Source of the DNA: a virus
Reading direction: 5' to 3' (one strand)
Length of the DNA stretch: 64,000 nucleotides
Virus record (IMG/VR): IMGVR_UViG_3300025127_000024
Span: 1 to 64,000 of that record
A program made the position numbers and the translations under genes. The notes beneath the pieces are model-generated. The model was not told where the DNA came from. It made no database searches and was given only the letters and a program-made list of their open reading frames with translations. Below are positions 1 to 25,876 of the stretch, piece by piece; within the stretch, counting starts at the first letter, position 1, and the number at the start of each line of letters is the position of its first letter.

Positions 1-1
1 T

Positions 2-3000
2 AAATCTTTACCTTCTGTAACTCAACCAGAATTAAGAAAAAAATTAGAACAAGCTTTTTCTAAAGAGCTTTACAAAAAAGTAAGACCATTATTAGGTAGA
101 ACTATAGAGCAGTACACAGAGTTTTTAGATAAAAACTATAAAGCATTATGGGATAAAATACCACAATCAGCTGTTAACAAAAGGTTTACAGAATTATCTA
201 CAGTGGTTAACGATCGTATGTCAGCTTCTGAATCTAATATAGCAGACAGACAAGTTAAAAACATATACGCTGGTAACGCGTTGAGAATAAAAAACAATTT
301 AACTAAACAGGATTTTGTAGATTACTTTACAAAGGGTAAAAAAGTTAGAAGTAGAAAAGAATCATTAGCGCAAGTATTAGCTACTGAGCTTGCTAAAGAT
401 GAGGTCAACAATGTGTTAATGGATAATCCAGATCTGCGAAACAGATGGATAGGTCAACAAGAATTAATGAACGATAACTTAAAGCAAAATTATATTGCTA
501 TGTTATCAGTCGCTATAGATAGAGCTACTCCTGATTCTCAAGGTTTAAGATATTCTCAAGTAGTACAAACAGCTGAAACACTAGGTATATCTCAAGAGCA
601 ATTAGTTGGTTTATTAAATGAGTTGAGTCTAGATGAAATGCAACAACAACAACCGTTGATATATGATTCTATTATAGATTCATTTAATTACTGGGTAGAC
701 AATACCGTTAAAGTAATAGGTAGAATTAATGACGGTTTTGTAAAAGTTATTAAAAACCAATTTCCTAACTTTGTAGGTAATTATAATAACAGACTACAAG
801 AATACATAAACAATAAAGAATATAATTGGGTTACTGATTACACAGATTTAGAAGGTAATAAAAGAAAAATATATAACTCTGAAAGATATGACACGTGGCT
901 TAATGAAACTTTAGATCAAATAAAGTATATGCCTGTTGAGGTGTTAAAAGCATTAAGTAAGTTAAAAAACCAAAACTACAATTGGCTTACAAAAATGCAC
1001 ATGAAAGATAATGGTAGCTCTAGAGGTGGATCACCAGTTGGTATGGTGTACAATGCTGATGGTAGTTTAATAAGTGAAGACAGGCAAAAGAAAGTTACAC
1101 CTGAAGAATATGAAGAAGGAAGAAGAGTTAGTAAAGAGGTTTTTAAGAAGAAATATCAAAAAGCTATAGCAGATGCTATTAAAAACAACAAGGCAACTGA
1201 ACAAACAAAAGCTAAGTGGAAAAACTATAAGAGCTCTGATATAGAACTAGGAAATAAAGGAGCCGCAACTATGGGTCATATATTAAGCGTGTATAGAAAT
1301 ATAGCTAATAAACCATGGGGCGCACAAACAAAAGCTAATGTAATGTCTCGTATAATGGGGCCAAGAGGTAAAGCTTCTTTAAAATCAGGTTTAGCTTTAA
1401 TGGATGCTTATCACTCTAGTTTAAATGACTGGGTAAACAATGAGGTTAAAGGTGGTAGAAACAGAGGTGAAGCTATGACTTCTATATTTGCTAACATGCA
1501 GATGACTACTAATGCTGTTTATTCCGCTAGAGCATACGCCTCATTTACTTCGTTTTATTTTGTTGATGGTCCACAAAATATAGATAACAAGTTTAAGGGT
1601 TATAAAGGTGAACACGTACAAGATTCTTCTTCTACTACATCTTCTATATTTATGTCAATGTTAGACAATAGTTTTGAGGACAATATAGCTGGTATACTAG
1701 AGGGATATGAACAGTCTGCTATGTTAGAATCTGATACTAAAAGAATAGATGAAGTTGGTGGTAAAAATAGTCCTTTAGGTAACATAAGATTTTTACTAGA
1801 ACCTAAACTAGGTAAACAAATATTTAATTTAGATGGTGTAAGTAAATATCAAGAGGTATTAAACGAATACGATCAAATATTTAGAACAGCTGTTGGTGCT
1901 AATGTAAGAGTAGATGATACAGCTATGAAGATTAGAAAAAGTCAAGGACCTAGAAAAGGTATTAGTGTGTGGGACTTTGACGATACTTTAGCTAAAACTA
2001 ATTCTAAAGTTGGGGTTGAAATGCCTGACGGAACAACTAGAAAAATAAACGCAGAGGAGTTTGCTAAAACATCTGATCAATTATCAGAGCAAGGAGCTAA
2101 GTTTGATTTTAGTGAGTTTAACAAAGTTATGAGAGGTAAGAAAGGACCTATGTTTGAAAAAGCTTTAGCTCGTAACAAAAAGTTTGGTAATGAAAATGTA
2201 TATATACTAACAGCTAGACCTCAAGCATCGGCAACCGCTATACAAAAGTTTTTAAAAGGTATAGGCTTAGATATACCTTTAAAAAATATAACAGGATTAG
2301 AAGACGGTAGACCTGAAGCTAAGGCCGCGTGGGTTGAAGACAAAGTGTTAGAAGGTTATAATGATTTTTATTTTGCTGATGACGCTTATAAAAACGTAAA
2401 AGCAGTACAAGAATCATTAAACAAATATGATATAAAATCAAGAACAGAGGTTGCAGGCTTTAGAAATAGTATGACTAACTCTGAAAAGTTTAACACTATA
2501 TTAGAACAAACTAAAGGTATAAAAGCTGATGAAATGTTTTCAGATGCAAGAGCTAGACAAATAGGAAAAAACATAGGTAGATTTAAATTCTTTGTTCCGC
2601 CTTCAGCAGAAGACTTTGTTGGTTTAATATATAGCTTTTTAGGTAAAGGAAAAGTTGGTGAGGCACAACTACAGTTTTTTAAAGATAGTTTAATAAAACC
2701 TTTTGGTCAGGCAATGCAAGCGTTGTCAATAGCACAAAACGCATCAAGGCGAAATTACAATACTATAAGAAAAAGATTTGATAAAAAGTTTTTAAGATCA
2801 CTTGGTAAAGAATCTGAATATAAAGGTTTTACTAATCAAGATGCTGCACGAGTTTACATGTGGGTTAAAGGTGGATATGATATACCTGGTTTAAATAAAC
2901 AAGATATAAATAGATTAGTTGAAGTTGTAGAGAATAATGAAAACTTAAAATCATTTGCTGATCAAGTATTTAATATGACAGGTGAAGGCTATGTACAACC

Positions 3001-4519
3001 GTCAGAAAACTGGACAGCATCCAATATATCAGGTGATTTACAAGGTAACCTAAGAGATATAAGTAGAAAGCAATATTTATCTGAGTGGGTAAAAAACAAA
3101 AATGAAATATTTAGTAAAGAAAATCTAAATAAAATAGAAGCGTTATATGGTTCTAATTTTAGAGAAGCATTAGAAGATATATTGTATCGTATGGAAAACG
3201 GTACTAATAGAAACTTTGGTAAGAACAGGTTAGTTAATAACTTCATGAATTGGATTAACAACTCTGTTGGAACAATAATGTTCTTTAATGCTAGATCGGC
3301 TGTTTTACAGACAATATCTGCGGTAAACTTTATTAATTTAGGTGATAATAATCCTATAGCTGTAGCTAAAACATTATTAAATCAAAAACAATACTGGTCA
3401 GATTTTGTAAAAATATTTAACTCTGACTTTTTACAACAGCGTAGAAAAGGTAATAGAATAGATGTTAGTGCTAGTGAAATAGCCAACTATGTAGCTAACT
3501 CTAAAAACCCTATAAAAGCAGGTATAGCTTATTTATTAGATAAAGGGTTTTTACCTACACAAATAGCAGATAGTTTTGCTATATCAGTAGGTGGTGCTAG
3601 TTTTTTTAGAAACAGAGTACAAACATATGTTAACCAAGGTTTAAGCTTACAAGAAGCTGAGTCAAAAGCTTTTGGTGATTTCCAAGAACTCACAGAGGAA
3701 GCTCAGCAGTCTAGTAGACCTGATAGAATATCACAACAACAAGCTGGTCCTTTAGGTAGAGTTATATTAGCATTTGCTAATACACCTATGCAGTACACTA
3801 GGTTAATTAAAAAAGCTACATTAGATTTAATAAACAAAAGAGGTGATTGGAAAACTAATGTTTCTAAAATAATATACTACGGCGCTATACAAAATTACAT
3901 ATTCAACGCTTTGCAAAACGCTATGTTTGCTTTATTGTGGGACGACGACGAAGAAAAAGAAAAAGAAAAGGACATGCGTACGCTAAATGGTATGGCAGAT
4001 TCTTTATTAAGAGGAACTGGCTTGCCTGGAGCTATTACTTCTACTGTTAAAAACATGGTGTTAAAAGCTATTGAAGAATCAGAAAAAAGAAATCCAGAAT
4101 ATACTAAGGTAGCAATAACAGCGCTAGGTATATCACCACCTGTATCTTCTAAAATAAGAAAAATAGCACAGGTAGGTAACATAGTTAAATATGATGGTGA
4201 TGAAATAATGGAAAAAGGTTTATCATTTGATAACCCAGCTTGGCTTGCAGGAGGAAAACTTTTATCAGCTTTCTTTAATGTACCAGCTGATAGAGTTGTA
4301 CAAAAAATGGATAACCTTAAAGTAGCCGTAGATAATGAAACACAATGGTGGCAGTCTATAGCGTTAGCTTTAGGTTGGGATCAATGGAGTTTAGGTTTAG
4401 GTTATAATAAGAAAAAAGAAGAAATAATAATACCAGATAATAAATTTTTAAAGAAATTTAAAACCAATAAGTTTAAGGCACCAAAGTTTAAAACCCCAAA
4501 ATTTAAAAGAAAATTTTAA
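2..4519 (+). CDS. C-terminal part of a giant internal virion protein with an embedded HAD-like domain (5' end outside window)
   Basis: The frame is open from base 2, so the true start lies before the window; the Met/Val codons near 203 are internal. More than 1,500 residues are visible. Around residues 655-665 is GISVWDFDDTLAK, the DxDxT nucleophile loop of HAD phosphatases. It is followed by YILTARP (about 733) and YFADDAYKN (about 790), which fit HAD motifs II and IV. The rest is long and mostly helical, with a hydrophobic stretch near LGRVILAFANTPMQYTRL, a pattern seen in large phage ejection or polyvalent proteins. The C-terminus is a lysine-rich repeat in which KFK recurs with a period of about five residues (4450-4516), perhaps binding DNA or membrane. 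Its position before an exported-protein and lysis-like cluster fits a late virion gene. The virion role is inferred; the HAD motifs are seen directly. Confidence 0.7.
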   Translation, partial: KSLPSVTQPELRKKLEQAFSKELYKKVRPLLGRTIEQYTEFLDKNYKALWDKIPQSAVNKRFTELSTVVNDRMSASESNIADRQVKNIYAGNALRIKNNLTKQDFVDYFTKGKKVRSRKESLAQVLATELAKDEVNNVLMDNPDLRNRWIGQQELMNDNLKQNYIAMLSVAIDRATPDSQGLRYSQVVQTAETLGISQEQLVGLLNELSLDEMQQQQPLIYDSIIDSFNYWVDNTVKVIGRINDGFVKVIKNQFPNFVGNYNNRLQEYINNKEYNWVTDYTDLEGNKRKIYNSERYDTWLNETLDQIKYMPVEVLKALSKLKNQNYNWLTKMHMKDNGSSRGGSPVGMVYNADGSLISEDRQKKVTPEEYEEGRRVSKEVFKKKYQKAIADAIKNNKATEQTKAKWKNYKSSDIELGNKGAATMGHILSVYRNIANKPWGAQTKANVMSRIMGPRGKASLKSGLALMDAYHSSLNDWVNNEVKGGRNRGEAMTSIFANMQMTTNAVYSARAYASFTSFYFVDGPQNIDNKFKGYKGEHVQDSSSTTSSIFMSMLDNSFEDNIAGILEGYEQSAMLESDTKRIDEVGGKNSPLGNIRFLLEPKLGKQIFNLDGVSKYQEVLNEYDQIFRTAVGANVRVDDTAMKIRKSQGPRKGISVWDFDDTLAKTNSKVGVEMPDGTTRKINAEEFAKTSDQLSEQGAKFDFSEFNKVMRGKKGPMFEKALARNKKFGNENVYILTARPQASATAIQKFLKGIGLDIPLKNITGLEDGRPEAKAAWVEDKVLEGYNDFYFADDAYKNVKAVQESLNKYDIKSRTEVAGFRNSMTNSEKFNTILEQTKGIKADEMFSDARARQIGKNIGRFKFFVPPSAEDFVGLIYSFLGKGKVGEAQLQFFKDSLIKPFGQAMQALSIAQNASRRNYNTIRKRFDKKFLRSLGKESEYKGFTNQDAARVYMWVKGGYDIPGLNKQDINRLVEVVENNENLKSFADQVFNMTGEGYVQPSENWTASNISGDLQGNLRDISRKQYLSEWVKNKNEIFSKENLNKIEALYGSNFREALEDILYRMENGTNRNFGKNRLVNNFMNWINNSVGTIMFFNARSAVLQTISAVNFINLGDNNPIAVAKTLLNQKQYWSDFVKIFNSDFLQQRRKGNRIDVSASEIANYVANSKNPIKAGIAYLLDKGFLPTQIADSFAISVGGASFFRNRVQTYVNQGLSLQEAESKAFGDFQELTEEAQQSSRPDRISQQQAGPLGRVILAFANTPMQYTRLIKKATLDLINKRGDWKTNVSKIIYYGAIQNYIFNALQNAMFALLWDDDEEKEKEKDMRTLNGMADSLLRGTGLPGAITSTVKNMVLKAIEESEKRNPEYTKVAITALGISPPVSSKIRKIAQVGNIVKYDGDEIMEKGLSFDNPAWLAGGKLLSAFFNVPADRVVQKMDNLKVAVDNETQWWQSIALALGWDQWSLGLGYNKKKEEIIIPDNKFLKKFKTNKFKAPKFKTPKFKRKF

Positions 4520-17540: not shown

Positions 17541-18296
17541 CTACAGATAATCAAGCACTTGCGAGTGATCGACATTATCTATAAGTTTTTGTACTGCTTG
17601 TTTTTTTAGCTCAGAAACTCTTACATGACTACTAACTCCAGTTATGTTTAAAGCGTCTGCTATTTCCTTAGCTGAATGCTTGTCACAATCTAAACCGTAG
17701 CTTAATCTTAAGGCTTCATACTCGTTTTCATTTAAATGTTTTTGCATTAAACCTTTTAAATAAATATTTAGTAAAGCTATATTATAAGGCTCTGATTTAT
17801 CAGGTAATTCTAGCATCATATTTTCTCCATACTCATTTGTTGGTTGAGCATCTATAGATAAAAATACAGAATTAAAAAACATAGCTACCATTTTTTTATC
17901 TTTAGGGTTTTTACGTATCTCGTTCATTTTATGCTCAGGTATTCTTATATCACCTCTACAAGCGTCAATGCGTCTGCGTATTAATCCTTTAATTCTTTTA
18001 CTAAAAAACGATTTTAATGTTTTTTCTATGTCTTCAGATTCTTTTAATTTGTCCCACTCTAATTTATCAACAGCTCTAGTTAAACCTTCGTTACCTATTT
18101 GTATTAAATCATTTATAGTTAATACACCTGAAGCTTGTTGACTAGTAGAAAATTTTCTAGCTAGGTTTTCTACAAGAGGCATAAACTTTATTACAAGTTC
18201 ATCTCTTGTGTAATAATCATAAAACTTATCGTCAGGCATAGAAGTTTTTAAATCTTCTTTATACCTAATGTAGTTTTGTATATTATATTTCTTCAT
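17541..18296 (-). CDS. Sigma-70 family RNA polymerase sigma factor
   Basis: The protein would redirect host RNA polymerase to phage promoters. In 251 residues it has region 2 (PLVENLARKF ... LTINDLIQIGNEGLTRAVDKL, the core-binding helix) and region 4 (LNENEYEALRLSYGL ... SAKEIADALNITGVSSHVRV, the helix-turn-helix for the -35 element). Region 1.1 is missing, as in alternative sigma factors. It overlaps the upstream HTH gene by 14 nt. The block it belongs to starts with seven copies of a promoter-like element, but the factor more plausibly serves middle or late promoters, because early ones must be read by host polymerase. Confidence 0.9.
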   Translation of the reverse strand: MKKYNIQNYIRYKEDLKTSMPDDKFYDYYTRDELVIKFMPLVENLARKFSTSQQASGVLTINDLIQIGNEGLTRAVDKLEWDKLKESEDIEKTLKSFFSKRIKGLIRRRIDACRGDIRIPEHKMNEIRKNPKDKKMVAMFFNSVFLSIDAQPTNEYGENMMLELPDKSEPYNIALLNIYLKGLMQKHLNENEYEALRLSYGLDCDKHSAKEIADALNITGVSSHVRVSELKKQAVQKLIDNVDHSQVLDYL

Positions 18297-18906
18297 TTAA
18301 AATTTGTTTTTCATGTTTTAAATCTTTACATAAGTTTCTATATATAGTTCTAGTAGAACAATTAAGTAGACCCGCTACTCTGCCCCATGTAATTTTTTTA
18401 CCGTAATCATTTAAATCTAACATGCATTGATAAATAGATTCTGCATCTACATTAGATGATCTACCTATTAATTTACCTACAATACTAAGCTTTTCATTTA
18501 TATTTAACATACAATAATCTTTAAATATTACTTTGCGTCTTTTGTTTATAGGTGGTTCACCACCGAGACTAAAAACATCATTAATCATTTCATCTAGTTT
18601 TTTACTACTAATAAAGAAAGTTACAAATCCGTTTTCTTTATTAGCTATAAATCTAAATACAATTCTAGCATAACCATGCCTGACTTGTAATTCTTCATTT
18701 AGATAATACAATACAAAGAAATGCCATTTTAATGATTTATACGTAGTTATTTTAGCCTTGCTGTTAAACAAGTGATAACATTCATATGTACCATTTTTAT
18801 AGTATTTATAATGTTTGGTTTCAATAGTAGGTTTATCAGTTATAGGATCTCTTCTATAATTAACACGTCTATCATTAAGCCATTTAATATTTCTATCTTG
18901 TGACAT
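18283..18906 (-). CDS. HTH-containing protein, possible transcription regulator
   Basis: A 207-residue protein with a C-terminal helix-turn-helix, ITWGRVAGLLNCSTRTIYRN, followed by a basic helix. The N-terminal 130 residues are rich in Tyr, Phe and Lys and match no family I recognise. It is cotranscribed with the sigma-factor gene (14-nt overlap) and may work with it, or it may be a replication initiator-like DNA-binding protein. Confidence 0.65.
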   Translation of the reverse strand: MSQDRNIKWLNDRRVNYRRDPITDKPTIETKHYKYYKNGTYECYHLFNSKAKITTYKSLKWHFFVLYYLNEELQVRHGYARIVFRFIANKENGFVTFFISSKKLDEMINDVFSLGGEPPINKRRKVIFKDYCMLNINEKLSIVGKLIGRSSNVDAESIYQCMLDLNDYGKKITWGRVAGLLNCSTRTIYRNLCKDLKHEKQILNEEI

Positions 18907-20777: not shown

Positions 20778-21017
20778 TTATTTAAATTTTTTAAGTTTAT
20801 TTTCAATATTTGTTATTTTTTCTTTTAAAACTTTACAAGCTTCATAGTTTTCACGTTTAAGCTCAAAGTCTAATTTAGTCATAGCAGAAGCTAATTCTCC
20901 TAATAATACCTCTTCTTGATCCTCTTCGGGAAGACTAAAAATACTTATTTCAGTAAATTTTTCCATAACTCTATTAGCTATGTCTTCTGCTAGTTTGTCT
21001 AATTGTTTTTCTGTCAT
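20778..21017 (-). CDS. Small coiled-coil protein
   Basis: A 79-residue acidic helical protein (MTEKQLDKLAEDIANRVMEK; ENYEACKVLKEKITNIENKL). Its ATG lies at the very end of the promoter-like element at 21017-21053, so its transcript may be leaderless or nearly so. It may be the first gene of the transcript reading into ligase. Function unknown. Confidence 0.65.
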   Translation of the reverse strand: MTEKQLDKLAEDIANRVMEKFTEISIFSLPEEDQEEVLLGELASAMTKLDFELKRENYEACKVLKEKITNIENKLKKFK

Positions 21018-21053
21018 ATTATATTATCTAACTGTTTTCGTATTTAGTTTGTA
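21017..21053 (-). promoter_or_regulatory. 37-nt promoter-like element, copy 1
   Basis: Read on the minus strand it matches TACAAA-N3-AATACGAA-N8-GATAATA-N-AATA in full. It lies in the 3' end of the 21028 gene, and the ATG of the 20778 gene begins at its last base. Confidence 0.75.
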
Positions 21054-21513
21054 ATTCTTTATATCTAGTCTCACCGTTAGCAAAATCAGTATAGTACATA
21101 GGTTCTTTCTGATTCATATATTTAGATATAATCTTTTCTGGTTTTAATACAAAAACACACTGATTAGAATACATATTCCAACAACTTACGTGTATTTTGT
21201 CTTTATTACCAGTCCATATAATATATCTGTACTCATGATCTATTCTATCTGCTTTAGGATATAAATAAACACTATCGTAATAAAAATCGTGTACAAATTT
21301 TGATGCCAGTCTTGAACCATCTTGACACCCGTTACTGTGTGTCATTAGCCAATTAGCTATTTGCACAGCTTGCCATTCAGGATAACCATCGTGGTGCTGA
21401 TACATATTTACATAGCTTTTGTCTTGTACAAGATCAGGGTGTATAGCAAATCCTTCTGGATACTTGCTACTATGTTCACGGTCTACGACCATTGTTAAGT
21501 TTCTAGTGCTCAT
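21028..21513 (-). CDS. Conserved phage hypothetical protein (MSTRNLT type)
   Basis: A 161-residue protein starting MSTRNLTMVVDREHSSKYPE, with YVNMYQHHDGYPEWQAVQIA and DHEYRYIIWTGNKDKIHVSC. The N-terminal STRNLT block and YxHHDGYP motif recur in phage proteins I recall as uncharacterised. A beta-rich fold is suggested. It overlaps the 65-residue gene upstream by 11 nt and hosts promoter-like element copy 1 in its last codons. Confidence 0.7.
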   Translation of the reverse strand: MSTRNLTMVVDREHSSKYPEGFAIHPDLVQDKSYVNMYQHHDGYPEWQAVQIANWLMTHSNGCQDGSRLASKFVHDFYYDSVYLYPKADRIDHEYRYIIWTGNKDKIHVSCWNMYSNQCVFVLKPEKIISKYMNQKEPMYYTDFANGETRYKELQTKYENS

Positions 21514-21700
21514 GTTCTACTAGTATTTGCTCGATTTCATGATCGAGATTAGTAATTTCTCTTGCAAGATCTAAAAAATTTCTAAGAGCATTAACTTCAT
21601 AGTTGCTAAGCTCATCTGTTTCTCTGTCTTCGATCGCATTTATGCAATCTCTCATGTCTCTGACGGTATTTTCAAACCGACAATAACTCATATTTGCCAT
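21503..21700 (-). CDS. Conserved small phage protein (MSYCRFENT type)
   Basis: A 65-residue protein MANMSYCRFENTVRDMRDCI then LRNFLDLAREITNLDHEIEQ. MSYCRFENT followed by D..DC is a pattern I recall in many phages without a known function; two Cys and an acidic helix are its main features. It overlaps the 21028 gene, and the tRNA-Met follows upstream on the same strand. Confidence 0.65.
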   Translation of the reverse strand: MANMSYCRFENTVRDMRDCINAIEDRETDELSNYEVNALRNFLDLAREITNLDHEIEQILVEHEH

Positions 21701-21721
21701 ATTTATTTATTTATAATTTAG

Positions 21722-21795
21722 GTGCGCAGGGTGGACTCGAACCACCGACCTCGAGTTTATGAGACTCGCGAGCTAACCAGCTGCTCTACCGCGCA
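21722..21795 (-). tRNA. tRNA-Met (anticodon CAT)
   Basis: The acceptor stem TGCGCGG pairs with CTGCGCA (one G-U). The D-stem is GAGC/GCTC around a loop with GGTTA. The anticodon stem CGAGT/ACTCG holds the loop CTCATAA, and the T-stem GGTGG/CCACC holds the loop TTCGAGT. The variable loop is five nt. The anticodon CAT could be elongator Met or, if modified with lysidine, Ile. The next base after the acceptor is C and CCA is not encoded, so the host must add it. Confidence 0.92.
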
Positions 21796-21799
21796 ATTT

Positions 21800-22048
21800 T
21801 TAATCTAGTAAAACCATATAGGCTTCTATATTGTTTTTAGAAAACCATCTTAGTGCTTTATGAAAGTCATCTTTGTGTTTATCAGTGACAATACCTGCTA
21901 TCTGAGAGCCAATAATAAAATCATACATAGATAACTCTTCAGCTGTAAGCTCATATTCTTCGCCAGAAAATGGATTTTTAACAGTATCGCCAGATTTGTA
22001 TATCATTCCATTGAACCATTTAGGTAATTTATTCTTTTTCCCACTCAT
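21800..22048 (-). CDS. Conserved small phage protein of unknown function
   Basis: An 82-residue protein with PKWFNGMIYKSGDTVKNPFS then GEEYELTAEELSMYDFIIGS, and a C-terminal HKALRWFSKNNIEAYMVLL. I recall the ELTAEELSMYDFIxG block from phage genomes. It has mixed alpha/beta character with no catalytic motif. It overlaps the acidic protein gene upstream by 20 nt. Confidence 0.65.
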   Translation of the reverse strand: MSGKKNKLPKWFNGMIYKSGDTVKNPFSGEEYELTAEELSMYDFIIGSQIAGIVTDKHKDDFHKALRWFSKNNIEAYMVLLD

Positions 22049-22475
22049 ATCCTTCTTCTATTAATTCGTTTTCAACTTCTTGTTTCATATCGCTCCAATA
22101 TTCTTCGTATACTTCTTCAATAGCATCTTGATAAGCATACTCATCTTTATTGTATTCATCTATGTATATTGCTAAACCATCATAGATAGCTTGTGGTAGT
22201 TTTTCTAACCAATCAGACTCATAATAGTATAAATCTTGTTCAATATACGGTGATCTGTCATCTTCAGTAGCCATATATACTTCATAACCATCCGCTGTTG
22301 TTTGTGTATAGAAAAACATTTGACAGGATCCGTTCCAGTCTGTTTTAATTTCAGCGTCATAGTATTTTAATACTACTTTTTCCGCTTCTTCAGTGTCTAA
22401 TTCTCCAAGGTATACAATACCTTTTTCTTCTAGTTTTTCAAGGATTAAATCCTCTGTTAGTTTTTTAATTGCCAT
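22029..22475 (-). CDS. Acidic protein, possible host-takeover factor
   Basis: A 148-residue, strongly acidic protein (many Glu, Asp and Tyr, e.g. DEYNKDEYAYQDAIEEVYEE). An acidic, Tyr-rich surface is common in DNA-mimic or inhibitor proteins, but no known family is recognised. It is in the first-transcribed third of the minus block and overlaps both neighbours. Confidence 0.6.
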   Translation of the reverse strand: MAIKKLTEDLILEKLEEKGIVYLGELDTEEAEKVVLKYYDAEIKTDWNGSCQMFFYTQTTADGYEVYMATEDDRSPYIEQDLYYYESDWLEKLPQAIYDGLAIYIDEYNKDEYAYQDAIEEVYEEYWSDMKQEVENELIEEGYEWEKE

Positions 22476-22728
22476 ATTCTATTTTATCATTATTAGTTAC
22501 CATCCACTCACAATCTTTTACGCTGTGACCTGCACCATATAAAAATGCTTCACAACTTTCATGATCAGGATTCCATTCGTTTTCATCTGTACATAACGAG
22601 CTAATGTTATATCTATATGCTTTACCGTCATTAAAATCTAGTAAAAATATATATTTAGCTGTCTCATCTGCTATTATTATTTCTTTTTCTTCGATCATTT
22701 CAAAGTATTTTTTTACTGTATCACTCAT
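22465..22728 (-). CDS. Small acidic hypothetical protein
   Basis: An 87-residue protein (MSDTVKKYFEMIEEKEIIIA; later GKAYRYNISSLCTDENEWNP). Acidic, with a beta-strand-like middle and two Cys. It overlaps the 22029 gene by 11 nt and lies one base below the stop of the 22730 gene, so the three form one translational unit. Confidence 0.55.
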   Translation of the reverse strand: MSDTVKKYFEMIEEKEIIIADETAKYIFLLDFNDGKAYRYNISSLCTDENEWNPDHESCEAFLYGAGHSVKDCEWMVTNNDKIEYGN

Positions 22729-22729
22729 A

Positions 22730-22963
22730 TTATTTGCTTATTATATTATCACCATACATAAAGCTATACGCACTCATCTCCCAGCTATTTAAATTAGCAT
22801 ATGTCATTAGGTCTCTAAGCTCATCAATAGTTAGCTCGTACCATAATGATTTTGACATTAATGTGTACTTTAATCTTTTAGCTGTGCTGAATTTTTTAGC
22901 ACTTTCTTGTAAGTTTTGTTTTACTTCTGGTAGAAGACTTTGATAGATTGTTTTTACTGTCAT
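22730..22963 (-). CDS. Small hypothetical protein behind promoter-like copy 2
   Basis: A 77-residue helical protein (MTVKTIYQSLLPEVKQNLQE; ELTIDELRDLMTYANLNSWE). The promoter-like element at 22969-23005 ends only 5 nt before its ATG, so it is probably the first gene of a short-leader transcript. No family recognised. Confidence 0.6.
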   Translation of the reverse strand: MTVKTIYQSLLPEVKQNLQESAKKFSTAKRLKYTLMSKSLWYELTIDELRDLMTYANLNSWEMSAYSFMYGDNIISK

Positions 22964-22968
22964 GTTTT

Positions 22969-23005
22969 TATTTTATTATCAATTATTATTCGTATTAGTT
23001 TTGTA
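22969..23005 (-). promoter_or_regulatory. 37-nt promoter-like element, copy 2
   Basis: A full match to TACAAA-N3-AATACGAA-N8-GATAATA-N-AATA on the minus strand. It overlaps the last codons of the 22979 gene and lies just upstream of the ATG at 22963. Confidence 0.75.
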
Positions 23006-23353
23006 ATTTTTTAAGTAGTAATTAAGCAAAAAGTTTAATCTAGCTAAACCTGACCAGATAAGCGCTCTTGACCAAGTGTCATGTTCTTCAGTAACTAGCC
23101 CATTACTTTTAAGAAATACATATTTAATCTTACGTTTATATTTAGGGTTTAGTTGCCATATTCTATCGCTACTGTCACATCTACGTACATAACCTGATTT
23201 ATAAGTCGCTAACATTTGACCTGTAGGCATTTTAAACTGTCTAGTGCCATTTTTGGCTTGTCTTTGTGTAGTTACTTCTTGAATACCATATTCTATTAGT
23301 AACATTCTTGCGTAAGCATTTTCTAATGCCTCTTGTTCTTGTCTCCAATTCAT
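22979..23353 (-). CDS. Small basic hypothetical protein
   Basis: A 124-residue protein (MNWRQEQEALENAYARMLLI; RQFKMPTGQMLATYKSGYVR; RIWQLNPKYKRKIKYVFLK). The beta-rich basic middle resembles small nucleic-acid-binding folds but is not assignable. It lies directly below the tRNA-like element at 23367-23466, and its 3' end carries promoter-like copy 2. Confidence 0.6.
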   Translation of the reverse strand: MNWRQEQEALENAYARMLLIEYGIQEVTTQRQAKNGTRQFKMPTGQMLATYKSGYVRRCDSSDRIWQLNPKYKRKIKYVFLKSNGLVTEEHDTWSRALIWSGLARLNFLLNYYLKNYKTNTNNN

Positions 23354-23366
23354 AATTTAAATTTAG

Positions 23367-23466
23367 TGGACGTGGCAGGAATCGAACCTGCGTTATTAAA
23401 ATTAGCTGGGTTGCTATTATAATTGAGTATACTCTCCCTTAATTTTAATCTAACCATTTCACGCCC
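23367..23466 (-). ncRNA. Atypical tRNA-like element with a long hairpin in place of normal D/anticodon arms
   Basis: GGGCGTG pairs with CACGTCC as a 7-bp acceptor (one G-U) with A as discriminator. The T-arm is canonical (GCAGG TTCGATT CCTGC). Between them lie AAATGGTTAG, where ATGGTTA is a D-loop-like piece, and a perfect 10-bp stem ATTAAAATTA/TAATTTTAAT. That stem encloses GGG/CCC and the palindrome GAGTATACTC. No 5-bp anticodon stem with a 7-nt loop could be placed. It begins at the stop codon of the zinc-ribbon gene and ends 14 nt before the next ATG. Options are an unusual tRNA, a tRNA with an insertion, or a tRNA mimic or processing signal. Confidence 0.55.
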
Positions 23467-23655
23467 TTATTTGCGCCTCCAAGATTTGTGAACTGCGGCT
23501 GATAGTTCTTGTGAAACTACCTGTACTTCAAGCACTTGCTTGTTAGCTATAATAGGAATATAGCTTACTTTTTTAGTTGAAGAACAACTGACACAAGTGT
23601 TATAACCTAGCTCGATACGAACTGGGTGTACTATTTTACCGCATTTACAAATCAT
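23467..23655 (-). CDS. Small zinc-ribbon protein
   Basis: A 62-residue protein with MICKCGKIVHPVRIELGYNT and CVSCSSTKKVSYIPI, that is C-x-C ... C-x2-C, a likely zinc ribbon. Similar short Cys4 proteins are frequent in phages and some bind RNA polymerase or DNA. It has its own promoter-like element 4 nt upstream (copy 3) and the tRNA-like element right after its stop. Confidence 0.7.
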   Translation of the reverse strand: MICKCGKIVHPVRIELGYNTCVSCSSTKKVSYIPIIANKQVLEVQVVSQELSAAVHKSWRRK

Positions 23656-23659
23656 AGTT

Positions 23660-23696
23660 TATTTTATTATCTTACTTTATTCGTATTAATTTTGTA
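23660..23696 (-). promoter_or_regulatory. 37-nt promoter-like element, copy 3
   Basis: A full match to TACAAA-N3-AATACGAA-N8-GATAATA-N-AATA. The element ends 4 nt before the ATG at 23655, in the shared start context ACTATG. Its upstream half lies in the 3' end of the 23686 gene. Confidence 0.75.
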
Positions 23697-23862
23697 ATAG
23701 CTTGTTTAAAGCAAGATTTATTACATATTCTTTCATGTCTTGATACTCATCGCCTTCAAGAGGTACATCAGATAACTGCCAATCGACACTATCTTCTATT
23801 ATTTCTTTTACATGATTAGCTATAGCTTCTGCATGTATGTCTAATTCTTTCATTTTGCTCAT
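23686..23862 (-). CDS. Small acidic hypothetical protein
   Basis: A 58-residue protein from ATG at 23862 (MSKMKELDIHAEAIANHVKE; DVPLEGDEYQDMKEYVINLA). Acidic, two-helix character. The ATG overlaps the upstream stop (ATGA), which shows translational coupling and supports it as a real gene. No family. Confidence 0.6.
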   Translation of the reverse strand: MSKMKELDIHAEAIANHVKEIIEDSVDWQLSDVPLEGDEYQDMKEYVINLALNKLLQN

Positions 23863-24110
23863 TGTTTTGCTATTAATTTTAATTGTTCTACTGAATATTT
23901 TTTACTTGTTTGTTGCCACATACGATTGTGAGTGAACTTACGTGCTTTGGTATAAGATTTTTTACCTGATATTCTTACTCGATTATATTCTGCATCAGTT
24001 AGTCCACTGCACACACCGTCGTGGGCGTGCTTACGTCTATGCTCCGCAGCTCGCAATTTTTTTGCCTGTTTTGCATAGAGGCATAATTCTTTCATGTTAG
24101 TAACTACCAT
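23859..24110 (-). CDS. Small very basic protein
   Basis: An 83-residue Lys/Arg/His-rich protein (KELCLYAKQAKKLRAAEHRR; DAEYNRVRISGKKSYTKARK). Probably nucleic-acid binding by charge. The start overlaps the 24104 gene by 7 nt and the stop overlaps the next start by 4 nt. Confidence 0.6.
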   Translation of the reverse strand: MVVTNMKELCLYAKQAKKLRAAEHRRKHAHDGVCSGLTDAEYNRVRISGKKSYTKARKFTHNRMWQQTSKKYSVEQLKLIAKQ

Positions 24111-24295
24111 GGTAACAATGTTTTTTCTATGTAAGTTAAACCTTTGTAGTTAAACCAGTGTGATTTACCGTATTGTTCTTTGTTTTCATTATAAATAAAG
24201 CCAAATGAGTTTGGTAGATCGCCTATTAAATAGCCTTGATAAGTAGTATTTGCTATTTTTATTGTATTTTTGGATAAGAATTTGATTTTTTGCAT
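24104..24295 (-). CDS. Small hypothetical protein behind promoter-like copy 4
   Basis: A 63-residue beta-rich protein (MQKIKFLSKNTIKIANTTYQ; SFGFIYNENKEQYGKSHWFN). The ATG lies 8 nt after promoter-like copy 4 in the ACTATG context. Function unknown; a candidate early gene. Confidence 0.6.
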   Translation of the reverse strand: MQKIKFLSKNTIKIANTTYQGYLIGDLPNSFGFIYNENKEQYGKSHWFNYKGLTYIEKTLLPW

Positions 24296-24303
24296 AGTTT
24301 TTT

Positions 24304-24340
24304 TATTTTATTATCTATAGTAATTCGTATTAAATTTGTA
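24304..24340 (-). promoter_or_regulatory. 37-nt promoter-like element, copy 4
   Basis: A full match to TACAAA-N3-AATACGAA-N8-GATAATA-N-AATA. It ends 8 nt before the ATG at 24295 and begins beside the stop codon of the 24341 gene. Confidence 0.75.
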
Positions 24341-24559
24341 TTATAAACATTTATGAGCGTTAGTTAGTGCATATTTAGCTAATGATTGACGAAATTCCCA
24401 CTCGCGCTTGCGATATTCGTAGTCAGTACACCATTTGTACATAGCTCTGCTATTAGTATTAGGATTGTAATTAGCTTCAAACTCATCTATTTGTTGAAGT
24501 TTTTTAGTGATTAAACCTTTAGCGTCTAATTCTTTGAATTTAGTATCTTTAAATTGCAT
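24341..24559 (-). CDS. Small hypothetical protein
   Basis: A 72-residue basic helical protein (MQFKDTKFKELDAKGLITKK; MYKWCTDYEYRKREWEFRQS). The ATG is in the ATACTATG context, 11 nt after the stop of the 24571 gene. Unknown function. Confidence 0.6.
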   Translation of the reverse strand: MQFKDTKFKELDAKGLITKKLQQIDEFEANYNPNTNSRAMYKWCTDYEYRKREWEFRQSLAKYALTNAHKCL

Positions 24560-24570
24560 AGTATTATATT

Positions 24571-24690
24571 TTAGTAGAAGTCATAGTATATTTCTCTAAC
24601 CTTAGACTTCTGTTCATCAGTTAGTTTAGTATAGTGCTTGTCAAATAGTCGCCAAGATATTTTTAGTAATGTATAAGAGTAATTGCACAT
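24571..24690 (-). CDS. 39-residue protein behind promoter-like copy 5
   Basis: From ATG at 24690: MCNYSYTLLKISWRLFDKHY then TKLTDEQKSKVREIYYDFY. The ATG is 5 nt after the promoter-like element and in the shared ACTATG context, which is the main support for expression. A C-terminal helix with an acidic/aromatic face is visible. Confidence 0.55.
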   Translation of the reverse strand: MCNYSYTLLKISWRLFDKHYTKLTDEQKSKVREIYYDFY

Positions 24691-24692
24691 AG

Positions 24693-24839
24693 TTATATTA
24701 TATTATCTATTTCTTTTCGTATTGTCTTTGTAATTGGCTTCTCATAGTTTTCATCTGTGAGCGTACCGAAGAGTAACTCGTCAAAATATTCTTCACGAGC
24801 TACAAATCTTTGTTGTAATTTAGAATAATAACTTCTCAT
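24693..24839 (-). CDS. 48-residue hypothetical protein
   Basis: From ATG at 24839: MRSYYSKLQQRFVAREEYFD, ending KTIRKEIDNII. Its 3' end encodes promoter-like copy 5, and its start overlaps the upstream membrane-protein stop (TAATG). Unknown function. Confidence 0.5.
   Translation of the reverse strand: MRSYYSKLQQRFVAREEYFDELLFGTLTDENYEKPITKTIRKEIDNII
24696..24732 (-). promoter_or_regulatory. 37-nt promoter-like element, copy 5
   Basis: A full match to TACAAA-N3-AATACGAA-N8-GATAATA-N-AATA, nested in the last codons of the 24693 gene and ending 5 nt before the ATG at 24690. Confidence 0.75.
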
Positions 24840-25012
24840 TATCCTAATATTCCGAATGAAGTGTTATCATTGATTACTATTTCGCCTGTTATCCAGAAGA
24901 ATATAAATGATAGTATTCCACCGATTGCTAAAGTTGCTAGTCCTGTTATGAATGTATACAAAGCGATATTGCCTATTTTGTATAATACATAGTGTATAAA
25001 TTTTCTGTTCAT
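24839..25012 (-). CDS. Small membrane protein
   Basis: A 57-residue protein from ATG at 25012 with one or two membrane segments at residues 14-42 (NIALYTFITGLATLAIGGIL; SFIFFWITG). ATACTATG start context. It lies between the tRNA-like element at 25033-25073 and the 24693 gene. It could be an early membrane-acting or superinfection-exclusion peptide; no family. Confidence 0.55.
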   Translation of the reverse strand: MNRKFIHYVLYKIGNIALYTFITGLATLAIGGILSFIFFWITGEIVINDNTSFGILG

Positions 25013-25032
25013 AGTATAATTTTAAGTATTAG

Positions 25033-25073
25033 TAGACATGGTGAGAATCGAACTCACATTAACCATTATGTCT
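25033..25073 (-). ncRNA. Truncated tRNA-like minihelix (acceptor plus T-arm)
   Basis: AGACATA can pair with CATGTCT over 6 of 7 bases, with A as discriminator. The T-arm is perfect (GTGAG TTCGATT CTCAC). Only nine bases, ATGGTTAAT, lie between the 5' acceptor strand and the T-arm, so no anticodon arm fits. ATGGTTA is also found in the element at 23367-23466. It may be a decayed tRNA or a deliberate tRNA mimic. It sits in the spacer between the 25094 and 24839 genes. Confidence 0.5.
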
Positions 25074-25093
25074 GATTTGTAAAGAAGTAGTTA

Positions 25094-25324
25094 TTATACT
25101 ACCTCTTTATCTCTTACTAGAGTAGGAACTGAAGTGCTAGAAGTGTAGCTACCATATTTGATAAAGCAAGGCATAGTAGTTAACTTATCTTTCATAATTT
25201 CCCACACTTTATCATGATTGTAAGTGAAAGTTTTACCTGATTTGAATTCTACATTTACAGTAGTATCTTTACCGATTAGAGATTTTCTGATTACAAATCT
25301 TTTAGAAGTGATTGAATTTTGCAT
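25094..25324 (-). CDS. Small basic hypothetical early protein
   Basis: A 76-residue protein (MQNSITSKRFVIRKSLIGKD; VNVEFKSGKTFTYNHDKVWE). The beta-rich start suggests a small barrel. The ATG is in the ACTATG context, 29 nt after promoter-like copy 6. No family recognised. Confidence 0.6.
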   Translation of the reverse strand: MQNSITSKRFVIRKSLIGKDTTVNVEFKSGKTFTYNHDKVWEIMKDKLTTMPCFIKYGSYTSSTSVPTLVRDKEVV

Positions 25325-25353
25325 AGTGTTAAATTTAGTTATTAATTATTATT

Positions 25354-25390
25354 TATTATATTATCTATTGTAAGTCGTATTTAGTTTGTA
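25354..25390 (-). promoter_or_regulatory. 37-nt promoter-like element, copy 6
   Basis: Matches the consensus with one change (AATACGAC for AATACGAA). It overlaps the 3' end of the 33-residue frame at 25361-25462. Confidence 0.7.
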
Positions 25391-25462
25391 TTTGAGTGTA
25401 TATTTGTTTACTTGTTTATATTTATTAAATAGTATTCCAACTTGTCTCAAAGTGTTTAACAT
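25361..25462 (-). CDS. Possible 33-residue leader protein
   Basis: ATG at 25462 reads MLNTLRQVGILFNKYKQVNK then YTLKYKLNTTYNR and ends inside promoter-like copy 6. Copy 7 lies 19 nt upstream. It has the same promoter-gene-promoter nesting as its neighbours but is very short and basic. It would be the first gene of the minus block. Confidence 0.35.
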   Translation of the reverse strand: MLNTLRQVGILFNKYKQVNKYTLKYKLNTTYNR

Positions 25463-25481
25463 TAGTTATTTAATTACTTAC

Positions 25482-25518
25482 ATTATTATTATCTAATTAA
25501 CTTCGTATTGATATTGTA
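25482..25518 (-). promoter_or_regulatory. 37-nt promoter-like element, copy 7
   Basis: TACAAT-N3-AATACGAA-N8-GATAATA is kept with the same spacing and one change in the first block; the final AATA is not conserved. It is the most upstream copy and borders the non-coding control region. Confidence 0.65.
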
Positions 25519-25876
25519 TTTAGTTAATACAGAATGAATACGATGAGACGAGGATAATAGGTAGTAAGCAGATAGCTGCTGCGCTCCCCAGAAAAAACAT
25601 AAAAGGTGGGGGATATACTATACATGACGCGCTCATATATACGTAGAAATCCCTGAAAAAAAGGGGGACCCGGCGATTTGAAACGCGTTTTGGTTTTGGA
25701 AAAAATAGGGAGGGAGAGGGGGCAACCCCAACACTCTAGATACGTAATGTTTTTTTAAAATATGACAATAGCCTATAAGGTTATATAAATAAGAGGCTTT
25801 TGTCACTAATGTAAATTTTCACTTTTATCTGTGAGTATATATAGTATAGAGAAGTAGTAAACAAGAAATAATAAAA
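25519..25876. other. Non-coding control region between divergent blocks
   Basis: About 360 bases without a credible gene separate the minus (early/middle) and plus (late) blocks. Between 25640 and 25735 it is much richer in G than its surroundings, with G and A runs (AAAAAAAGGGGG, GGGAGGGAGAGGGGG). It also holds a GGGG-GCAA-CCCC hairpin with a GNRA loop around 25713-25724. An AT-rich stretch follows with TATATATAG near 25838, about 40 nt before the first late ATG. A replication origin, packaging signal or transcription switch would fit; none is proven. No ribosome-binding sequence precedes the ATG at 25877. Confidence 0.55.

Follow-up and report, generated by a model that had tools for sequence, protein, structure and literature searches.

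A stretch of viral DNA of 64,000 nucleotides (positions 1 to 64,000 of IMG/VR record IMGVR_UViG_3300025127_000024; hereafter the window) carries seven minus-strand copies of a 37-nt promoter-like element between 21,017 and 25,518. We propose that this element is probably the core promoter of a phage regulon, in which the host core RNA polymerase, equipped with a phage-encoded sigma factor, would read GATAATA with help from a second phage protein, p207, at an upstream box. To our knowledge, almost nothing is known of how genes are activated in Bacteroidota viruses outside the crAss-like phages, the reason being the unusual promoter of their hosts. The present analysis yields a precise candidate promoter that is used throughout a virus clade, a predicted start base, and two named candidate proteins.

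Results

On the minus strand, the consensus of the element is TACAAA-N3-AATACGAA-N8-GATAATA-N-AATA. We call TACAAA box 1 and AATACGAA box 2. Six of the seven places match this pattern with at most one mismatch. It had no match in 100 dinucleotide shuffles, a check the initial annotation had called for, and none are expected by chance. The seven copies listed in that annotation are real, and five of them are perfect. Copy 1 lies at 21017-21053. Copy 2 (22969-23005) falls within the end of gene 22979-23353 and upstream of the ATG at 22963, copy 3 (23660-23696) is upstream of the ATG at 23655, copy 4 (24304-24340) of the ATG at 24295, and copy 5 (24696-24732) of a short open reading frame (ORF) beginning at 24690. 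Copy 6 (25354-25390), which has one change, AATACGAC, is upstream of the ATG at 25324. Copy 7 (25482-25518) is the weakest on this strand but is still recognisable, with about four departures from the pattern, including TACAAT and a shifted 3' AATA. The copies follow one another in tandem, often running across the stop codon of the gene before them.

A position matrix built solely from the sites of other viruses scored all seven minus-strand copies at 30-43 bits, compared with a top score of 13.9 in ten first-order Markov simulations of the genome. With this matrix we also found an eighth copy on the plus strand (25528-25560; 22-25 bits), 9 bp from copy 7 and back to back with it, facing the plus-strand genes. 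The earlier statements that the element does not occur outside 21.0-25.5 kb and is limited to the minus strand therefore do not hold. Beyond these eight copies, no site above 9.8 bits was found anywhere in the 68,993-bp contig of which the window is part. Divergent partner copies occur in just 6 of 41 records (this genome, G001, G005, G011, G049, and G055), and we therefore rejected the divergent copy as a conserved feature.

The element is widespread among related viruses. Exact matches to its core occur in more than 119 stretches of IMG/VR. Among the 32 records scanned whole, all those of at least 60 kb carry at least six copies, mostly on one strand, except G024, which has one chance hit and was excluded from the motif-bearing set. 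G028, G029, and G032, whose retrieval relied on terminase similarity rather than on the motif, are among those with at least six copies. Matrix scans of the relatives gave 6-13 strong sites per array, and the element also occurs upstream of single genes. The initial suggestion of a regulon is supported, as many genes across the whole virus clade share the element. No site was found in four named relatives (MW202828 and elemoA scanned whole, phi38:1 over 1-50 kb, and phi19:3 over 1-46 kb). Sites within one genome have lineage-specific letters in common; for example, the base before GATAAT may be all G, all T, or all C. This is the pattern that a co-evolving trans factor produces. Our literature search found nothing direct on this motif or on transcription in this phage group.

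The geometry of the element is rigid. In about 1.9 Mb of clade sequence, read on both strands, box 2 is separated from GATAATA by 8 bases in 253 sites and by another length in 1, box 1 from box 2 by 3 bases in 123 sites versus 1 with some other spacing between 0 and 7, and box 1 from GATAATA by 19 bases in 185 sites; these counts are partly conditioned, since many records were found via the motif, although most sites per record were not used in finding it.

A start-site signature lies at a fixed distance downstream. We aligned 212 sites from 29 genomes with the G of GATAAT as position 0. A purine (A or G) occupies position 12 in 98% of the 179 sites that lack an ATG there, and a pyrimidine (C or T) occupies position 11 in 80% of them. 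Where an ATG does begin at position 12, position 11 is a pyrimidine in 100% of cases (33 sites). The sequence GTAA starts exactly at position 12 in 60 sites, at 11 in 1, and at 13 in none. The purine, the preceding pyrimidine, and the register of GTAA therefore place GATAAT at -12 to -7 relative to a purine start, which supports the earlier view of GATAATA as a -10 box. We considered whether ATG-TAA might be a start-stop mini-ORF and rejected this; the core is [TC]GTAA, and ACG and TCG variants occur too, so that a start-site motif is the simpler reading, even though most cases are also valid start codons.

An ATG at position 12 would make the message leaderless. At copy 1, the G at -12 is at 21028 and transcription probably starts at 21017, the A of the ATG of gene 20778-21017, giving a leaderless message. 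Leaders of only a few bases had been proposed for all copies, and this holds for five sites in this genome, where an ATG lies 0-8 nt from the predicted start, but not for copies 6 and 7, where the next ATG is about 29 nt and about 19 nt away, respectively. Copy 7 has GTAA at its predicted start (25481). A tracts blur the signature in this genome, and copies 1 and 5 have A at position 11. In four relatives (L215, L219, L229, and L239), the gene that matches 20778-21017 has its ATG 6 nt past the G of GATAAT, a location upstream of the predicted start, and the pyrimidine-purine step at positions 11 and 12 is still kept, inside the gene. Leaderless messages are rare in flavobacterial hosts, at 5.5% in F. 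psychrophilum (PMC9723704).

The best candidate reader of GATAATA is a sigma-70 family protein of 251 amino acids encoded at 17541-18296 on the minus strand, with regions 2, 3.0, and 4. Its profile matches SigA/FliA at 4e-11, and regions 2.4 and 3.0 align to SigA without a gap. Pfam detects sigma region 2 in 34 of 39 family members and region 4 in 31 of 39. A structure model matches sigma structures in Foldseek (E 1e-5, probability 1.00) with TM-scores of about 0.3, which are low because the orientation between domains is uncertain. Every motif-bearing record tested that reaches 60 kb has the sigma gene, which is missing solely in contigs shorter than 60 kb or in G024. It was found in none of the four named relatives that lack the motif, so the element is found with the sigma gene and is absent without it. 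A search of named phages found no relatives of the sigma factor or of the C-terminal part of a giant protein described below.

In E. coli sigma-70, Q437 and T440 face position -12 (PMC2613000). Their equivalents in the phage sigma factor are Gly and Arg, and the motif has G rather than T at -12. We infer from these specific positions that the Gly/Arg pair may be tied to the G. We also looked for sigma residues whose identity covaries with box 1 or with the -13 base and found nothing beyond relatedness.

A second protein is associated with box 1. p207 (18283-18906, minus strand), whose gene overlaps the start of the sigma gene, has a C-terminal helix-turn-helix and is the candidate reader of box 1; HTH_11 is found at the C-terminus in 30 of 35 members. 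A fold search with p207 gave no match in the PDB and one nameless match in BFVD. Among sigma-bearing records, p207 is present in 33 of 33 in which box 1 is TACAAA and in 0 of 6 in which it is TCGAAA (Fisher p 3e-7, ignoring kinship). In a comparison of 16 genomes, p207 was the sole gene that the TACAAA group broadly has in common and the TCGAAA clade lacks; one other gene has a TACAAA-only pattern but occurs in just 3 genomes. G044 (TACAAA) and G028 (TCGAAA) have almost identical recognition helices in sigma region 4. Together with the p207 association, this suggests that box 1 is more likely to be read by p207 than by sigma, whereas box 2 and GATAATA, which stay constant, go with sigma. No replacement DNA-binding gene was evident in the TCGAAA clade, which has just four small ORFs of its own; none of these is clearly a DNA binder.

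The virus's portal and terminase are related to those of Flavobacterium elemo phages and Cellulophaga phi38:1/phi19:3-like phages (about 31-45% identity) and also match the uncultured spring virus MW202828 (49-64%). The viruses with the element are related to phages of marine and freshwater Flavobacteriia. The two ends of the contig overlap within a single giant late gene (62907-68993 and window 1-4519), where their protein sequences are near-identical, so the genome is probably complete at about 67 kb, and it is probably circular or terminally redundant. This gene has roughly 2,960 codons and encodes an HExxH motif and a HAD/polynucleotide-kinase-like stretch. The minus strand carries the small genes, ligase, p207, sigma, Erf, exonuclease, primase-helicase, thymidylate synthase, MazG, and ribonucleotide reductase, and the plus strand carries GroEL, GroES, and the virion genes. 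From their position, we take the small minus-strand genes to be early. No DNA polymerase gene was seen in the whole genome, despite the primase-helicase, ligase, and ribonucleotide reductase.

Two small RNA-like features lie among these genes. A mini tmRNA-like RNA at 23364-23466 on the minus strand matches the Rfam tmRNA model at 37.2 bits (E 2e-12), below the gathering threshold of 47. The match covers the two ends of the model, between which about 35 nt replace about 300, and the RNA comprises the tRNA-like part and the P2 stem with no tag region. G028 has a 134-nt relative (L229, 6157-6290, minus strand; 36.6 bits). A smaller tRNA-like stretch at 25035-25075 (minus strand), with just the acceptor stem and T arm, lies between genes taken to be early.

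Discussion

From the presence of the element and of both proteins, the rigid spacing, the use across the clade, the start-site signature, and the association of p207 with box 1, we infer which protein binds what, in what order, and when. With the phage sigma factor bound, the host core RNA polymerase would melt GATAATA (-12 to -6), acting as the -10 element, and begin transcription at the purine 12 nt after the G of this box. p207 would bind box 1 (-37 to -32), and box 2 (-28 to -21) would be read by the same rigid complex. About one-sixth of the relatives' sites would produce leaderless mRNA with the A of ATG at the start, while many others would give messages that begin with GUAA and whose leaders are about 20-40 nt long. 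The seven tandem copies may serve to refresh transcription across the series of small genes on the minus strand, and the divergent eighth copy would fire toward the plus-strand genes.

Several points weigh against this model. Such rigid spacing is unusual for ordinary sigma-70 promoters, and box 2 falls in the spacer, where sigma-70 holoenzymes contact few bases. All six TCGAAA records belong to a single clade that is nested within the rest, so the link between p207 and box 1 rests on one event. The conserved gene with its ATG at position 6 in four relatives must be read there from an upstream transcript. The sigma gene is located further down the same run of minus-strand genes, and its first expression therefore needs another promoter or a packaged protein; in a scan of this genome, the Bacteroidota-type promoter was not enriched, and none was above chance near the array.

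The strongest alternative, which we consider possible but unlikely, is that the element is a host-sigma promoter with a phage activator. The host holoenzyme would read GATAATA, p207, perhaps with another factor, would bind boxes 1 and 2 in place of a -35 element, and the phage sigma factor would serve later genes. A -10-like element with an activator-like box upstream would fit this arrangement, as would the association of p207 with box 1, and the first-used genes must be readable before any phage protein exists. However, the host primary sigma wants TAnnTTTG at -12 to -5 (PMC6847099), which is missing from all sites; the element was correctly described at the outset as unlike the Bacteroidota TTTG/TAnnTTTG promoter. 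Moreover, the sigma gene travels with the motif.

Bacterial chromosomes provide evidence on both sides. Exact matches to the element numbered 15 in a scan of 85,000 genomes. Some matches in bacterial genomes are misbinned phage, such as L350, which has the sigma factor at 79% and p207 at 73% identity. A few near-perfect copies do lie in Bacteroidota chromosomes, two or three together, just upstream of TerB-like, TPR, or other small genes, and no phage-sigma relative was found in the tested genomes that carry them. These copies favor a host reader, or at least leave room for one. Set against this, 397 genomes of the host-type family contained 6 matches versus 2 for the reversed control; there is thus no general whole-genome enrichment and no general host promoter class. 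Chromosomal copies were seen upstream of genes for TerB-like, TPR, MORN, and small secreted proteins (L358, L360, L353, L362, L363, L386, and L387), and the related genomes L386 and L387 have one such site in common. A further-reaching proposal, which we regard as doubtful, has two parts: that the element represents a promoter class whose specificity is divided between a phage sigma factor and an unrelated phage DNA-binding protein of new fold in a rigid 37-bp geometry, and that the copies in Flavobacteriia chromosomes wire small genes (TerB-like, TPR, MORN, and small secreted) to the sigma factor of an infecting virus, as an alarm or a hijacked set.

It is very improbable that the element is a promoter for a single-subunit RNA polymerase of the T7 type. 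When aligned with the T7 promoter, TAATACGACTCACTATAG, AATACGA...G corresponds to -16 to -10 and +1, so that GATAAT would be +1 to +6. The seven identical contiguous bases in register and the perfectly rigid spacing speak for this alignment. However, no PF00940 polymerase was found in 18 motif-bearing genomes or in this one, with a T7 control positive, and the purine and GTAA at position 12 would be left without a reason. As a variant, a very divergent N4-like polymerase might conceivably read the element. The giant virion protein was considered for this role, but it had no sequence match in a PDB set or Pfam and is weakly excluded, by sequence searches only. Finally, a post-transcriptional or replication element (an RNA processing site, operator, or origin repeat) would suit tandem copies that overlap stop codons, but is highly implausible given the fixed strand, the fixed offset to start codons, the -10-like box, the start-site signature, and the element's occurrence upstream of single genes in relatives.

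The clade that lost p207 and changed box 1 is a natural experiment. Together with the candidate promoter and the two proteins, it makes sigma versus activator control directly testable. The element also offers a portable, orthogonal expression element for Flavobacteriia.

How does the element compare with known promoter systems? T7 class III promoters likewise contain AATACGA and a G in the same register and are rigid, but no polymerase of that family occurs here and the start signature lies 12 nt further down. The Bacteroidota primary promoter (TTTG/TAnnTTTG) has a -10-type element starting at -12 (PMC6847099, PMC9723704), as the element does, and serves hosts of the same group. However, no site here fits the sigma-ABfr promoter, as TTTG is absent at -8 to -5 and G stands at -12.

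T4 middle promoters combine a -10 element with a MotA box centered at -30, a phage-activator box in place of the -35 element, and also depend on AsiA (PMC2988021). T4 uses the host sigma factor, whereas this virus encodes a full sigma-70 relative, and the boxes differ. A MotA box is expected about 12 bp upstream of the host-sigma -10 element. In the present element the distance to GATAAT is 19 bp from box 1 and 8 bp from box 2, and p207 is linked to box 1. Neither an AsiA nor a MotA relative turned up, though no search was made for either.

Another parallel is phiEco32 and 7-11, in which a phage sigma factor (gp36 with co-factor gp79, and SaPh711_gp47) turns the host core polymerase to phage promoters (PMC8948821). 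In common with the system proposed here, sigma is encoded by a podovirus, phiEco32 has a helper (gp79), starts lie 6-9 bp from the element, and the promoter consensus differs among relatives (PMC8948821). Their promoters have one or two elements before middle or late genes, whereas the element described here has three rigid boxes of unrelated sequence, lies on the strand of the small genes, and is often leaderless by prediction.

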